A DNA stretch of 64,000 bases from Peptacetobacter sp. (GTDB lineage: Bacteria; Bacillota; Clostridia; Peptostreptococcales; Peptostreptococcaceae), in the NCBI RefSeq assembly GCF_029264495.1, contig NZ_JARIBH010000019.1, positions 1 to 64,000 on the forward strand, in the 5' to 3' direction. The notes under the pieces were generated by a model. The model was not told the origin of the DNA and did not search any database. It was given only the letters and a program-made list of their open reading frames with translations. Both the position numbers and the translations under genes were made by a program. Every line of letters starts with the position of its first letter. Position 1 is the stretch's first letter. Shown piece by piece: positions 43,456 through 50,366 of this stretch.

Positions 43456-44577
43456 ATGATAGTCAAGTCACCGATAAAGGTAGACCGCAAAACAAAGAAA
43501 CTTGCTAAAAGAATCCAACCTGGTGAAATAGCAGTTATAAATCATACAGATATTGATGAGGTTGCAGCAAATTCTTTAGTTGAAGCTAAGGTCAAATTAG
43601 TTATAAATGCCGCTGAGTCTATAAGTGGTAGATATCCTAACAAAGGACCTGGTATTTTAACAGAAAACAACATACTTATAATAGATAGAGTAGGAGAAGA
43701 GCTTTTTAATAGCTTAACTGAAGGAGAAGTATTAGAAGTTGAAGATGGGAAAATATACAGAAATGGAGAGTTTTTAGGCGAAGGTGAAGTTCTTACAAAA
43801 GAAAAAGTAGCAGTTCAAATAAAACTTGCATACGAAAATTTAGGAGAAGAACTTGATAGATTTATAGACAACACAATAGAATATGCTAAAAAAGAAAAAG
43901 GATTTATATTGGGTGAAGTAGAAATTCCAAAAGTAAAAACAAACTATCAAGGTAGACAAGTTTTAATTGTAGTAAGAGGTCAAGATTTTAAAGAAGATTT
44001 AGCTACAATGCTTTCATATATTGAAGAAGTAAAACCTATTTTAGTGGGTGTTGATGGTGGAGCAGATGCACTAATGGAATTTGGTTATAAACCAGATGTT
44101 GTTGTTGGTGATATGGATAGTGTAAGTGATGAAGCTTTAAAAGCAGCTGATGAAATAGTAGTCCATGCATATACAGATGGTAGAGCTCCTGGATTAAAAA
44201 GAGTACAAGATTTAGGTTTAGATGCTGTAGTATTCCCAGCTCCAGGAACAAGTGAAGATATAGCAATGCTTATAGCATATGAATATAACGCAGAATTAAT
44301 AGTAGCTTTAGGAACACATTCAAATATAATAGATTTCCTTGAAAAAGGAAGAAAAGGTATGGCAAGTACATTTTTAGTTAGAATGAAGATAGGTGCTAAA
44401 CTTATAGATGCAAAAGGCGTAAACTTACTTTATAGAAGTAAATTAAAAATAAAATATATTTGGGCATTAATAGCAACAGCATTATTCCCTGTATTAATAG
44501 TGGCATCATTATCACCAAGAATACAGCAGTTTATACATCTAATGCAAATAAAATTGAGAATAATGCTTAGTATGTAG
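43456..44577 (+). CDS. steA: SteA-like protein (cytokinetic-ring/cell-wall regulator)
   Basis: Family named from Corynebacterium SteA, which with SteB controls cell-separation hydrolases. N-terminal domain, then a thiamine-pyrophosphokinase-like catalytic fold: VGVDGGADALMEFG and VVGDMDSVSDEAL near 195-225 mirror the GGAN and GDLDS motifs of ThiN, and ALGTHSNIIDFLEKGRKGMAST. A C-terminal membrane helix (about 335-355) then a short tail. 373 aa. It heads an apparent operon steA-steB-GT2-GT4-DUF3866. GGAGG before ATG. Confidence 0.9.
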   Translation: MIVKSPIKVDRKTKKLAKRIQPGEIAVINHTDIDEVAANSLVEAKVKLVINAAESISGRYPNKGPGILTENNILIIDRVGEELFNSLTEGEVLEVEDGKIYRNGEFLGEGEVLTKEKVAVQIKLAYENLGEELDRFIDNTIEYAKKEKGFILGEVEIPKVKTNYQGRQVLIVVRGQDFKEDLATMLSYIEEVKPILVGVDGGADALMEFGYKPDVVVGDMDSVSDEALKAADEIVVHAYTDGRAPGLKRVQDLGLDAVVFPAPGTSEDIAMLIAYEYNAELIVALGTHSNIIDFLEKGRKGMASTFLVRMKIGAKLIDAKGVNLLYRSKLKIKYIWALIATALFPVLIVASLSPRIQQFIHLMQIKLRIMLSM

Positions 44578-44598
44578 TTATATTAGGAGGAAGTAATT

Positions 44599-45471
44599 AT
44601 GCATATAAATATGAAATACTATATTGTTTCGATAGGAGCGATTTTTCTAGCACTAGGAATAGGAATTCTTGTTGGATTCAATCTAAATAACAATGAAGAA
44701 ATAAGTAAACAGCAGGCAAATATAATAAAACAACTTGATGAAGAATTTAATGACATCAAAGAAGAAAATAGCAATCTTAAAAAAGAATTAAATGGAACTG
44801 ATAAAAAATATAATGCCTTAATAAGTTATGTAAATAAAAATGCGGACTCTTTAATGACAGGTTCATTAACAGATAAAAATGTGGCAGTAATATCTACTTA
44901 TGAAAAATCAGAAAACGTAAATACACTAAAAAATATAATAAATGAATATGGTGGTTCATTAGCCTTTGATTTAACATTTAACAAAGAAATAACAGATGAA
45001 AAAATTATAAAAGAAGCTGCTAAAAAAACAGGAGAAAAATTTGAGTCAACAGCAGATATTGTAAATTATACATTTGATATGATAAAAAGAGGAAATAATG
45101 AATCTTTAAATATATTAAAAGATTTAAAAATTATAAATATAAATTCAGAAAATGGAGAAATAGCTAATTTTTCTTCAGCTATAATATTAGCTCCATCAGA
45201 ATCATCAAATCCTAATGAAAAGTTTAATAAATTAGATAAATTTGTAGTATCAAAATTAAAATCACAAAATAAATATATTGTAGAAGCACAAACTACAAAA
45301 TCAAAGACTTCATATGTTGAACAATATGCTAAGAATAAAGTTGCAACTGTAGACAACATAGATGAAAAAACAGGAACACTTTCATTAGTGTCTTTAGTAC
45401 AAGATGAAAATCTTGTTGGTAATTTTGGAAGATTAGATACAGCATCTTCTTTAATACCAATGGAAAAATAA
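44599..45471 (+). CDS. SteB/MctB-like (copper transporter family) membrane protein
   Basis: Begins MHINMKYYIVSIGAIFLALGIGILVGF, one membrane helix, then a coiled coil (about 37-75, KQLDEEFNDIKEENSNLKKEL) and an extracytoplasmic domain. This is the DUF3186 family, which includes mycobacterial MctB and corynebacterial SteB. The partner gene steA lies 21 bases upstream, so a SteAB-type division complex is more likely than copper transport. 290 aa. GGAGG before ATG. Confidence 0.87.
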   Translation: MHINMKYYIVSIGAIFLALGIGILVGFNLNNNEEISKQQANIIKQLDEEFNDIKEENSNLKKELNGTDKKYNALISYVNKNADSLMTGSLTDKNVAVISTYEKSENVNTLKNIINEYGGSLAFDLTFNKEITDEKIIKEAAKKTGEKFESTADIVNYTFDMIKRGNNESLNILKDLKIININSENGEIANFSSAIILAPSESSNPNEKFNKLDKFVVSKLKSQNKYIVEAQTTKSKTSYVEQYAKNKVATVDNIDEKTGTLSLVSLVQDENLVGNFGRLDTASSLIPMEK

Positions 45472-47010: not shown

Positions 47011-48081
47011 ATGCTAAGTAAAAAAGTTGGAGAAGTAGTAGAAATAAAAAAACAAAATGGTCAAATAGATGATATAAGAGTGAAAATAGGTAATGAAATT
47101 TTCAAATCTTATAATTATCCTAAAATGACTGGAAATGTAAATATAGGAGATAAAGTTCTATTAAATACTACAGCTGTTGAACTTTCTTTAGGAACTGGAG
47201 GATATCATTATGTTATATCCAACCTAGATAATATGGAGTCTAATTTAGAAGGAAAAGGTCATATAATGAAACTTAGATATACTCCAATGCAGGTAAGGGT
47301 AGATTCAGTAGAAGATCATGAAAGTAAATATCATAGTATATTTGAAAAATTCGAAAGTTTAAATAACATACCAGTAGTAGTTGGAACATTACATAGTATG
47401 CTGACTCCTTTTGCAGCTACGTATAAAAGACTTAATCCTAATAAAAAACTTGTATATATAATGACAGATGGAGCAGCTCTTCCAATATATTTTAGTATGA
47501 ATGTTGATACATTAAAAAATAAAGGCTTGATAGATTCTACAATAACATTTGGAAATGCTTTTGGTGGAGATTATGAATGTATAAATATATATACAGCATT
47601 AATTACAGCAAAGGAAATCGCAAAAGCGGATGCAGTTTTTGTTAGTATGGGGCCAGGAATTGCAGGTACAGGAACTAAGTATGGTTTTACTGGTATAGAA
47701 CAAGGAACAATACTTGATGCTATATCAAAACTTGGTGGGAGACCTATTGCAATACCAAGAATTAGTTTTGCAGACCAAAGAGAAAGACATAATGGTATAT
47801 CGCATCACAGTATAACAATATTAAGTGAAATTGTTAATGTAAAATCTGAGATACCAATCACTTTATATGATGGTGAAAAAATAAAGAAAATAGAAAATCA
47901 AATAAAAGAAAATAAATTAGATAAAAAACATAAAATAGCATATATAAAAAATAATAGAACGAAAGATGATATAGATAGCTATGGTCTGAAGGTCAGAAGT
48001 ATGGGAAGAAATTATGAACAAGATAGTGAATTTTTTGATTCAGCAGCTTCTGCAGCAATCTATATAACGGAAAATAAATAA
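47011..48081 (+). CDS. DUF3866-family protein
   Basis: 356 aa. No function known to me. Family-typical pieces: VVVGTLHSMLTPFAATYKRLNP near 123, YIMTDGAALPIYFS near 148, FGNAFGGDYECIN, MGPGIAGTGTKYGFTGIEQG and PRISFADQRERHNGISHHS. No signal peptide or membrane helix. It ends the steA operon six genes before mltG; in other clostridia it likewise follows steAB, which ties it to envelope or division work by context only. Confidence 0.85.
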   Translation: MLSKKVGEVVEIKKQNGQIDDIRVKIGNEIFKSYNYPKMTGNVNIGDKVLLNTTAVELSLGTGGYHYVISNLDNMESNLEGKGHIMKLRYTPMQVRVDSVEDHESKYHSIFEKFESLNNIPVVVGTLHSMLTPFAATYKRLNPNKKLVYIMTDGAALPIYFSMNVDTLKNKGLIDSTITFGNAFGGDYECINIYTALITAKEIAKADAVFVSMGPGIAGTGTKYGFTGIEQGTILDAISKLGGRPIAIPRISFADQRERHNGISHHSITILSEIVNVKSEIPITLYDGEKIKKIENQIKENKLDKKHKIAYIKNNRTKDDIDSYGLKVRSMGRNYEQDSEFFDSAASAAIYITENK

Positions 48082-48110
48082 AATTAAATTTATTTTAATT
48101 TATAATAAAA

Positions 48111-48173
48111 CCTGACCTTAAAAGATTTCGTATGAAGTCATACGATAGCTAGAAATCGAATAAGGAGTTAAGG
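48111..48173 (+). promoter_or_regulatory. Structured leader of the xerD-like gene
   Basis: Nested pairing in 63 bases: CCTTAA (48116-48121) with TTAAGG (48168-48173) directly before the ATG; GATTTC (48124-48129) with GAAATC (48152-48157); and GTATG-AAGT-CATAC (48130-48143) at the tip. At DNA level TCGTATGA-AG-TCATACGA is a perfect palindrome. The AAGGAG site (48162-48167) lies in the inner bulge, so translation may be influenced. A TATAAT lies at 48101-48106. Confidence 0.55.
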
Positions 48174-49052
48174 ATGAACAATACAATAGATAAATATATA
48201 GACTATATAGAAAATAAAAGAAAATTATCTTTTAATACTGTTTCATCTTATAGCATGGATTTAAAAAAATATGCAGAATATCTAAAAAGAAAGAATATAA
48301 ATATCAATGATGTAGTAGAAACAGATATATTAAACTATTTAGTAGATTTAGAAAAAAATAATGTATCTGTATCTACTATAGCAAGAATGATATCTTCAAT
48401 AAAATCTTTTCATGATTATTTATTCTTTAGTAAAATATGTGATATAGATCCATCTAAGAGTATAAAAAAACCTAAAATAAAAAAAGAGACAGTAGAAATT
48501 TTAACTGAAGAAGAAATAGAATCGCTTTTAAATTTTGAAAATCTTGATACGGACAAGCTAAAAAGAGATAAAGCTATATTTGAAGTTCTCTATGGAACAG
48601 GAATGAAAGTATCTGAGTTGATAGATTTAAATTTGAGTGATGTTGACTTTGAAATGAGCAACATAACATGTTCTTCAAGTAAGAACAAAAGAGTTATACC
48701 TCTTATAGAAGTGACTAAAAAATATTTAAAACTATATGTAGATGAATCTAGAGATAATATGGCATCAGATGGAGAAAAAGCATTATTTGTTAGTTCTTTA
48801 GGTCATAGATTCACAAGACAAGGACTTTGGAAAATAATAAAAAAATATTCAAATAAAGCAAATATAAATAAAAATATAAATCCAACTATGTTAAGACATT
48901 CATTTGCTATACATATGATAAATAAAGGAGCAAATATTGCTTCTGTAAATAAAATTTTGGGAAATACAAACTTAGCAAGTATTCAATCTTATATAAACTG
49001 TATAGATTCAAATATGAGAAGAGAGATGAATTTAAAACATCCTAGAAAATAA
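48174..49052 (+). CDS. XerD-like tyrosine recombinase with altered catalytic residues
   Basis: 292 aa with the SAM-like core-binding domain (1-85) and a C-terminal tyrosine-recombinase fold. Reading the six active-site positions: the first Arg (GLRVSE in XerD) is Lys in GMKVSE; the beta-hairpin Lys is present (SKNKRVIPL); the His of HxxR is Thr in PTMLRH while the Arg is kept; the His of LLGH is Asn in ILGNTN; the Tyr is kept in IQSYIN. Three of six are changed, so strand transfer is doubtful although the frame is intact. Ribosome-binding site AAGGAG. Confidence 0.85.
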   Translation: MNNTIDKYIDYIENKRKLSFNTVSSYSMDLKKYAEYLKRKNININDVVETDILNYLVDLEKNNVSVSTIARMISSIKSFHDYLFFSKICDIDPSKSIKKPKIKKETVEILTEEEIESLLNFENLDTDKLKRDKAIFEVLYGTGMKVSELIDLNLSDVDFEMSNITCSSSKNKRVIPLIEVTKKYLKLYVDESRDNMASDGEKALFVSSLGHRFTRQGLWKIIKKYSNKANINKNINPTMLRHSFAIHMINKGANIASVNKILGNTNLASIQSYINCIDSNMRREMNLKHPRK

Positions 49053-49313: not shown

Positions 49314-50366
49314 ATGAAGAAGAAGTTTTTAGCTATTTTGATAATTTTGGTTATAATAGTGGCATTTGGGGGTATATATTTTAAGAATCAATCTGGTGCA
49401 TATGATGTAAATGAAGAAAAAGAAGTAATAGTAGACATACCATCAGGATCAAGCATTGATAATATATCAAATATACTTAGCGAATCAAAACTTATAAAAA
49501 ATAAATTAGTGTTTAAAATAAATACTAAAATAAGTGGAAAAGCATCAGAATTTAAAGCCGGAAAATATAGATTTGATCAATCTTATACAAATGAGGAGAT
49601 TATAAATGATATAGCATCTGGAAAAACATATCATTCAGGTCCTAAAATTACAGTTAAAGAAGGAGCAACATCAAAAGAGATAGTTGAAGAATTAGTAAGT
49701 AAAAATCTAGGAAATACAGATGTATATAATAAGCTTATAAATAACCCATCTGAATTTAAAAATGAATTTGAATTTTTAAGAGATGAAAATATAAAAAGTT
49801 TAGAAGGATTTCTTTATCCAAGTACATATTATTGTGAGAAAACAGATAGTGAAAAAGAAATTGTTACTAAAATGTTAAATAAATTCAATGAAATTTATTT
49901 GAGTGGTATAAAAGAAGAAATAAAAAATAAAAATTTAAATTTATATGATATTATAAAAATGGCTTCGATAATAGAAAAAGAAGCTGTTTTAGATGAAGAT
50001 AGACCAATTATTTCAAGTGTATTTTATAATAGATTAGATAAAAAAATGCCACTTCAATCAGATGCAACAATACAATATGCTTTTAAAGAAAGAAAAAAGG
50101 TTGTTAGCTATGATGATTTAAAAATAGAGTCACCATATAATTCTTATAAATATAAAGGATTACCACCTACACCAATATCAAATCCTTCTTTAAAATCAAT
50201 TGATTCAGCAATAAATCCTGATAAAACAGATTATTTATACTTTGTTGCTAAGACAGATGGTGGAGGGAATAATTATTCTAAAACTTATGAAGAACATTTA
50301 AAATATGAAAAACAATATAAAGAGCAGAGAGAAAAACAGAAAAAGGAATCTTCTGAAAAACGATAA
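49314..50366 (+). CDS. mltG: Endolytic murein transglycosylase MltG
   Basis: YceG-like enzyme that cuts nascent glycan strands and terminates elongation. N-terminal membrane anchor (about 4-22), LysM-like sub-domain (IPSGSSIDNISNIL), then the catalytic domain with SLEGFLYPSTYYC near 160, the catalytic Glu in MASIIEKEAV near 222 and SPYNSYKYKGLPPTPISNP near 280. 350 aa. AGGAG before ATG. mltG-trmR-U32 reproduces B. subtilis yrrL-yrrM-yrrO. Confidence 0.95.
   Translation: MKKKFLAILIILVIIVAFGGIYFKNQSGAYDVNEEKEVIVDIPSGSSIDNISNILSESKLIKNKLVFKINTKISGKASEFKAGKYRFDQSYTNEEIINDIASGKTYHSGPKITVKEGATSKEIVEELVSKNLGNTDVYNKLINNPSEFKNEFEFLRDENIKSLEGFLYPSTYYCEKTDSEKEIVTKMLNKFNEIYLSGIKEEIKNKNLNLYDIIKMASIIEKEAVLDEDRPIISSVFYNRLDKKMPLQSDATIQYAFKERKKVVSYDDLKIESPYNSYKYKGLPPTPISNPSLKSIDSAINPDKTDYLYFVAKTDGGGNNYSKTYEEHLKYEKQYKEQREKQKKESSEKR

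Follow-up and report, generated by a model that had tools for sequence, protein, structure and literature searches.

A family-wide XerD orthologue of Peptostreptococcaceae, very probably retired from recombination, alongside a XerS-like recombinase with its own dif-like site

The gene at positions 48174-49052 of the window (the whole stretch of 64,000 nucleotides analysed, from a Peptacetobacter genome of 1.88 Mb in 88 contigs, 94% complete) is, by its locus and its place in the tree, the positional orthologue of XerD. Judging from the residues it has lost, its product and the orthologues throughout Peptostreptococcaceae are very probably non-recombining XerD proteins in organisms that use a single recombinase. 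The cutting appears to have passed to an intact XerS-like enzyme, which has a site of its own at the terminus, and XerD has probably been retained for some other chromosomal task. The finding is sound, and it is stronger and broader than an earlier note on this DNA had suggested: a catalytically retired XerD that is family-wide and under selection. The features of the locus and of the protein are as follows.

47011..48081, + strand: DUF3866 gene, the conserved upstream neighbour (PF12982, 464 bits)
48119..48155, + strand: hairpin-forming stretch GATTTCGTATGAAGTCATACGATAGCTAGAAATC upstream of xerD (-7.7 kcal/mol; shared only with the sister species)
48174..49052, + strand: xerD orthologue, catalytically degenerate (292 aa)
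48606..48608, + strand: K145, at the Arg I position (44 of 53 family orthologues have K, the other nine R)
48675..48677, + strand: S168, at the position of the beta-hairpin catalytic Lys (K at this column in just 3 of 53)
48885..48887, + strand: T238, at the His II (HxxR) position (T, S, R or N in 53 of 53)
48894..48896, + strand: R241, Arg II, retained (53 of 53; 103 of 103 XerD rows of the class-wide tree)
48963..48965, + strand: N264, at the His III position (N in 53 of 53)
48990..48992, + strand: Y273, the nucleophile Tyr, retained (52 of 53)
49314..50366, + strand: mltG/YceG gene, the downstream neighbour (PF02618, 292 bits)

The full-length frame is real and intact, as the earlier note had it: it opens with an ATG behind an RBS-like AAGGAG, and its translation matches both recombinase domains (Phage_integrase, 125 bits, and Phage_int_SAM_1). 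In the tree, the family XerD proteins constitute one clade (support 100) inside Clostridial XerD. The order at the Clostridioides difficile locus is DUF3866, NUDIX, SpoIIM, xerD, a phosphopentomutase-like gene and the gene for purine-nucleoside phosphorylase (PNP), which we take to be the XerD (RipX/XerD) neighbourhood of Firmicutes. Linkage of DUF3866 and xerD is extant in nearly all family loci and in many loci of the class. In the window, mltG follows xerD directly, and the NUDIX and SpoIIM genes that separate DUF3866 from xerD in C. difficile are gone from the interval 48082-48173. The window XerD thus resembles XerD/RipX of Firmicutes (TIGR02225) in locus, length, two-domain fold, C-terminal HPR motif and tree place, but it differs in the replacement of catalytic residues, in its score of 276.5 bits with the TIGR02225 equivalog model (curated cut-off, 329.6) and in its setting, a family in which neither a XerC above cut-off nor a canonical dif near the terminus was found.

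No palindrome upstream of xerD is conserved across the family. The hairpin at 48119-48155 occurs in the two closest Peptacetobacter genomes only, and autoregulation via such a palindrome was rejected on that ground. A sporulation role as the reason for the retention of xerD was rejected likewise: while most of the family has Spo0A, no match to its C-terminal domain was found in three Peptacetobacter genomes (G000-G002), which nevertheless keep XerD, and SpoIIM has gone from upstream of it in the window. In Peptacetobacter, xerD would thus have outlived sporulation and is no relic of it. Close to recN and xerD, a SteA-like and a MctB/SteB-like gene adjoin each other (43456-45471; PF12555, PF11382); SteA/SteB-type pairs are associated with actinobacterial cell division.

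Aligned by sequence to the catalytic positions of E. coli XerD (R148, K172, H244, R247, H270 and Y279), the window XerD reads K145, S168, T238, R241, N264 and Y273, so that four of the six residues differ. The earlier note had reported Lys for Arg I, Thr for the His of HxxR and Asn for the later His, with the second Arg and the Tyr remaining, and all of this is borne out; it had also counted the catalytic Lys as present, which does not hold. The beta-hairpin is of equal length in the alignment (IGKGNKERLVPL vs CSSSKNKRVIPL) with Ser at the position of the catalytic Lys, and the nearest Lys, K170 (48681-48683), comes two residues further along. Most family members share K170, but Peptoclostridium has Arg or Gly there, so that K170 is no secure substitute. 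The alignment likewise speaks against the catalytic residues being supplied at shifted positions: only the Lys has a candidate nearby, Arg I and the two His residues having none. The recombinase fold itself is predicted to be intact, since the AlphaFold model (built with 49 sequences) has a mean pLDDT of 89.6 and matches XerA, XerH, XerD and Cre in structure comparison. The retained Arg II and Tyr fit a phosphate-gripping pocket; they could also mean some residual chemistry.

The same pattern is found in 53 distinct XerD sequences of Peptostreptococcaceae, C. difficile included, far too many for chance or sequencing errors to account for it. None of the 53 has a His at the His II or the His III position, the latter being always Asn, and the catalytic Lys is absent from 50. 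Of the 71 family genomes, 61 have the gene, with an open frame free of stops in every one; it is absent from all nine genomes of one genus (g6), presumably Peptostreptococcus. The relatives of the window genome include Clostridioides difficile, Romboutsia, Intestinibacter, Terrisporobacter, Tepidibacter and Peptoclostridium. The dN/dS values of many species pairs range between 0.015 and 0.12, implying that the family XerD is functional, and some surface motifs are invariant (e.g., TRQG-WK). Loss of the cleavage residues under such strong constraint means that XerD is doing something else. The suggestion in the earlier note of a non-cleaving, DNA-binding or regulatory derivative is thereby strengthened, since the loss is fixed family-wide and the gene evolves under purifying selection.

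Outside the family, we considered 75 XerD orthologues sampled elsewhere in the order and class (L181-L240, L039-L053). Just 12 of them keep all six catalytic residues; the set is changed in the other 63. On the tree, the state changed at least 14 times at Arg I, 10 times at Lys, 14 times at His II and seven times at His III, as compared to one change at Tyr and none at Arg II; the count for the hairpin Lys is the least certain of these because this residue is hard to align. Such repeated independent changes suggest that catalytic loss in XerD tends to recur among Clostridia and has gone furthest in Peptostreptococcaceae. Some other Clostridia, with intact His residues, also have Lys at Arg I, and xerD has been lost entirely from Peptostreptococcus and from some other members of the order. 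Across the class, XerD decay is weakly associated with the presence of a XerS-like gene (Fisher p = 0.048, kinship ignored), and decayed XerD is likewise seen in genomes for which no close XerS-like gene turned up.

The genome of the window encodes two tyrosine recombinases besides XerD. One is a XerS-like protein of 374 aa (P0002), the gene of which adjoins lexA. XerS (NF003462) is its nearest model, with a score of 150.8 bits against a cut-off of 267, hence XerS-like rather than XerS. This gene occurs in 68 of 71 genomes of the family and in 183 of 198 of the order; its product is much more conserved than XerD, and R, K, H, R, H and Y are all kept in each of 31 aligned copies. No XerC above cut-off was found in 61 genomes. 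The other recombinase is specified by an integrase-like gene cut by a contig start (L002, G000:C49:1-1065), which adjoins a gene for an ABC-F ATPase-like protein.

Upstream of the XerS-like gene, usually by a few hundred bp, lies a 34-bp imperfect palindrome, AACTA(G/T)TC(T/C)TTAAA-TGTATA-TTTAGGGAATAGTT, with 14-bp arms and a 6-bp centre that is usually TGTATA. In the genome of the window, it is located outside the window at G000:C78:14285-14318 (locus L066), 237 bp before the start codon of the XerS-like gene. Of the 71 family genomes, 63 have the 34-mer; a reversed control pattern gave 0 matches. GC skew turns from plus to minus across it in all six closed chromosomes, where it is found at 39-50% of the record, and we have taken it to be dif for that reason. 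In the Peptostreptococcus-like genome G079 it lies some 100 kb away from the XerS-like gene and still at the skew switch. No canonical 28-bp dif was found within 10 kb of the terminus, as marked by the 34-mer, in six genomes. The arms of the 34-mer resemble two copies of one half-site, unlike the TTATGTNAA arm of XerD. The nine Peptostreptococcus genomes, which are without XerD, keep both the XerS-like gene and the dif. With a complete catalytic set, a gene close to the terminus and a dif near that gene, P0002 has the features of a XerS/XerH-like single recombinase. Accordingly, the expectation in the earlier note that resolution of chromosome dimers would need another recombinase, to be sought along with a dif near the terminus, is supported by the lexA-linked gene with its intact residues and by the 34-mer at the skew switch, both persisting where XerD has been lost.

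Streptococci have a separate leftover XerD-like protein beside XerS. The streptococcal and lactococcal XerS-difSL system is similar in its single recombinase, its nearby dif and its leftover XerD-like protein (PRK02436/NF002685). It differs in that the window XerD is full length and TIGR02225-like, scoring only 58 bits with NF002685, and in that the centre of difSL is 11 bp (PMC5357621), as compared to the 6-bp centre between 14-bp arms in Peptostreptococcaceae.

The explanation that we favour is that XerD of the RipX/XerD locus would have been retired from recombination in an ancestor of Peptostreptococcaceae, chromosome dimers then being resolved at the terminus by the single XerS-like recombinase, acting on the 34-bp dif that lies close to the gene for this recombinase. 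XerD would keep the clamp-like tyrosine recombinase fold with an Arg/Tyr/Asn phosphate-binding pocket, by which it would be expected to attach to DNA but not to cleave it; it would bind in the terminus region and release the SMC-ScpAB condensin that arrives there. As a whole, the explanation is tentative, with slightly less than an even chance of being right. Orthology, the catalytic loss throughout the family, purifying selection, the replacement recombinase and its dif at the skew switch are computational results, whereas the absence of cleavage, the binding of DNA and the unloading of SMC are inferred. By two accounts that cite Karaboja 2021 (PMC8523169, PMC12322038), XerD of B. subtilis unloads SMC at the terminus independently of recombination. 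Since it is independent of recombination there, such a job could survive the loss of catalysis. To our knowledge, no other established job of XerD could do so, which is why SMC unloading ranks first; as the retained role of XerD it is a plausible candidate that is somewhat more apt to be wrong than right. The B. subtilis unloader and the Peptostreptococcaceae XerD are orthologous.

Genomic context bears on SMC unloading in both directions. In some relatives in the order and class, scpA, mostly together with scpB, is located within ~3 kb of xerD, which is circumstantial evidence in its favour. Counting against it, scpA lies ~52 kb from xerD on the same contig in the genome of the window, and ScpA is kept in 19 of 20 genomes that lack XerD, implying that SMC does not need XerD; co-loss of XerD with condensin was rejected on the same count. 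Moreover, Glu184 of E. coli XerD, the main contact residue for FtsK-gamma, aligns with Val180 in the window XerD, which also counts against our explanation.

The main rivals of SMC unloading are regulation of the MrpR type and an accessory role at dif. Structural matches of the XerD model include the SPbeta repressor MrpR/YopR (Z ~13.6) and SroF (Z ~16), which would fit a recombinase-fold transcription factor, i.e., a sequence-specific repressor or activator. MrpR kept Lys and Tyr, lost other catalytic residues and no longer recombines, and mutation of its Tyr nonetheless costs part of its activity (PMC10516654), which would explain why the Tyr is conserved. However, MrpR/YopR and SroF are phage proteins of very low identity to the window XerD; the likeness is one of fold, along with the loss of several catalytic residues and, in MrpR, retention of the Tyr, and the regulatory role has been shown for the phage proteins. 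With xerD in a housekeeping locus rather than in a phage, and the family devoid of a shared palindrome upstream, a transcription factor is unlikely. A non-catalytic accessory subunit of XerS-like/dif recombination, acting beside or within the synapse and setting timing or directionality, would work in the same cellular setting, and XerC-XerD pairs do work via reciprocal control of catalysis. In its favour, symmetry between the dif arms is lower where XerD is present (11-12 of 14 positions) than in one genome without it (13 of 14), but the difference is very small. Against such a subunit, the two arms look like copies of one half-site and not of that of XerD, and the persistence of the XerS-like gene and dif in Peptostreptococcus weakens any accessory role; we consider it quite unlikely.

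An active or weakly active recombinase would have Lys standing in for Arg I, Asn for His III and K170 for the catalytic Lys, and would act at another site or with another partner. Nearly every copy has kept Tyr and Arg II, and in those other Clostridia that have Lys at Arg I with intact His residues, partial activity is possible. Against this, four of the six positions have changed in concert, with nothing to take over from either His. The Tn1549 integrase R225K structures in complexes with DNA, at what we take to be the position matching Arg I, are, as far as their description goes, consistent with DNA binding without full catalysis. Continued activity is highly improbable, and the alternative in the earlier note, that the family tolerates these changes and still recombines, seems correspondingly unlikely. 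The loss of XerD from Peptostreptococcus and other members of the order might point to a gene that is decaying and has no present function; the low dN/dS, the 61 open frames in 61 carriers and the invariant motifs largely refute this, and decay is barely credible.

If SMC unloading is what keeps the non-catalytic XerD, these genomes make a natural experiment on the separation of the two XerD jobs. We put forward as doubtful, and would not expect to hold in full, the wider proposal of a separation of function in which Peptostreptococcaceae XerD, that of C. difficile included, no longer recombines at all and is a dedicated DNA-binding SMC unloader at the terminus, the lexA-linked XerS-like recombinase and its dif resolve dimers, and, going by the step-wise catalytic loss in 63 of the 75 orthologues outside the family, XerD of many Clostridia acts mainly in chromosome architecture. 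Neither a terminus dif nor a single XerS-like recombinase for Peptostreptococcaceae was found in the literature searched, and both are proposed here for the family, including C. difficile. The gene in the family genomes would be annotated as xerD, but its product is almost certainly non-recombining; the presence of xerD in Clostridia is, therefore, unsafe evidence for XerCD/dif resolution.

A XerD half-site, TTATGTNAACT, occurs eight times at the terminus of the closed genome G002 as compared to 0 in the control, and 2 of 400 letter-shuffled motifs were as extreme. Five of these eight copies lie in coding frames and two others, intergenic and 1.9 kb from each other beside the same genes, probably belong to a local operator; at the terminus of G067, six copies were found where 2.65 are expected (borderline), and in G079, which is without XerD, three where 1.69 are expected (not significant). 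For these reasons, we have not counted the clustering as support for binding at the terminus. In intergenic DNA of G002, two dif-like palindromes (1167360 and 1169274; locus L262), with TTATGTTAAC as their arms, lie at a distance of 1.9 kb from each other and are possibly operators of the genes between them.
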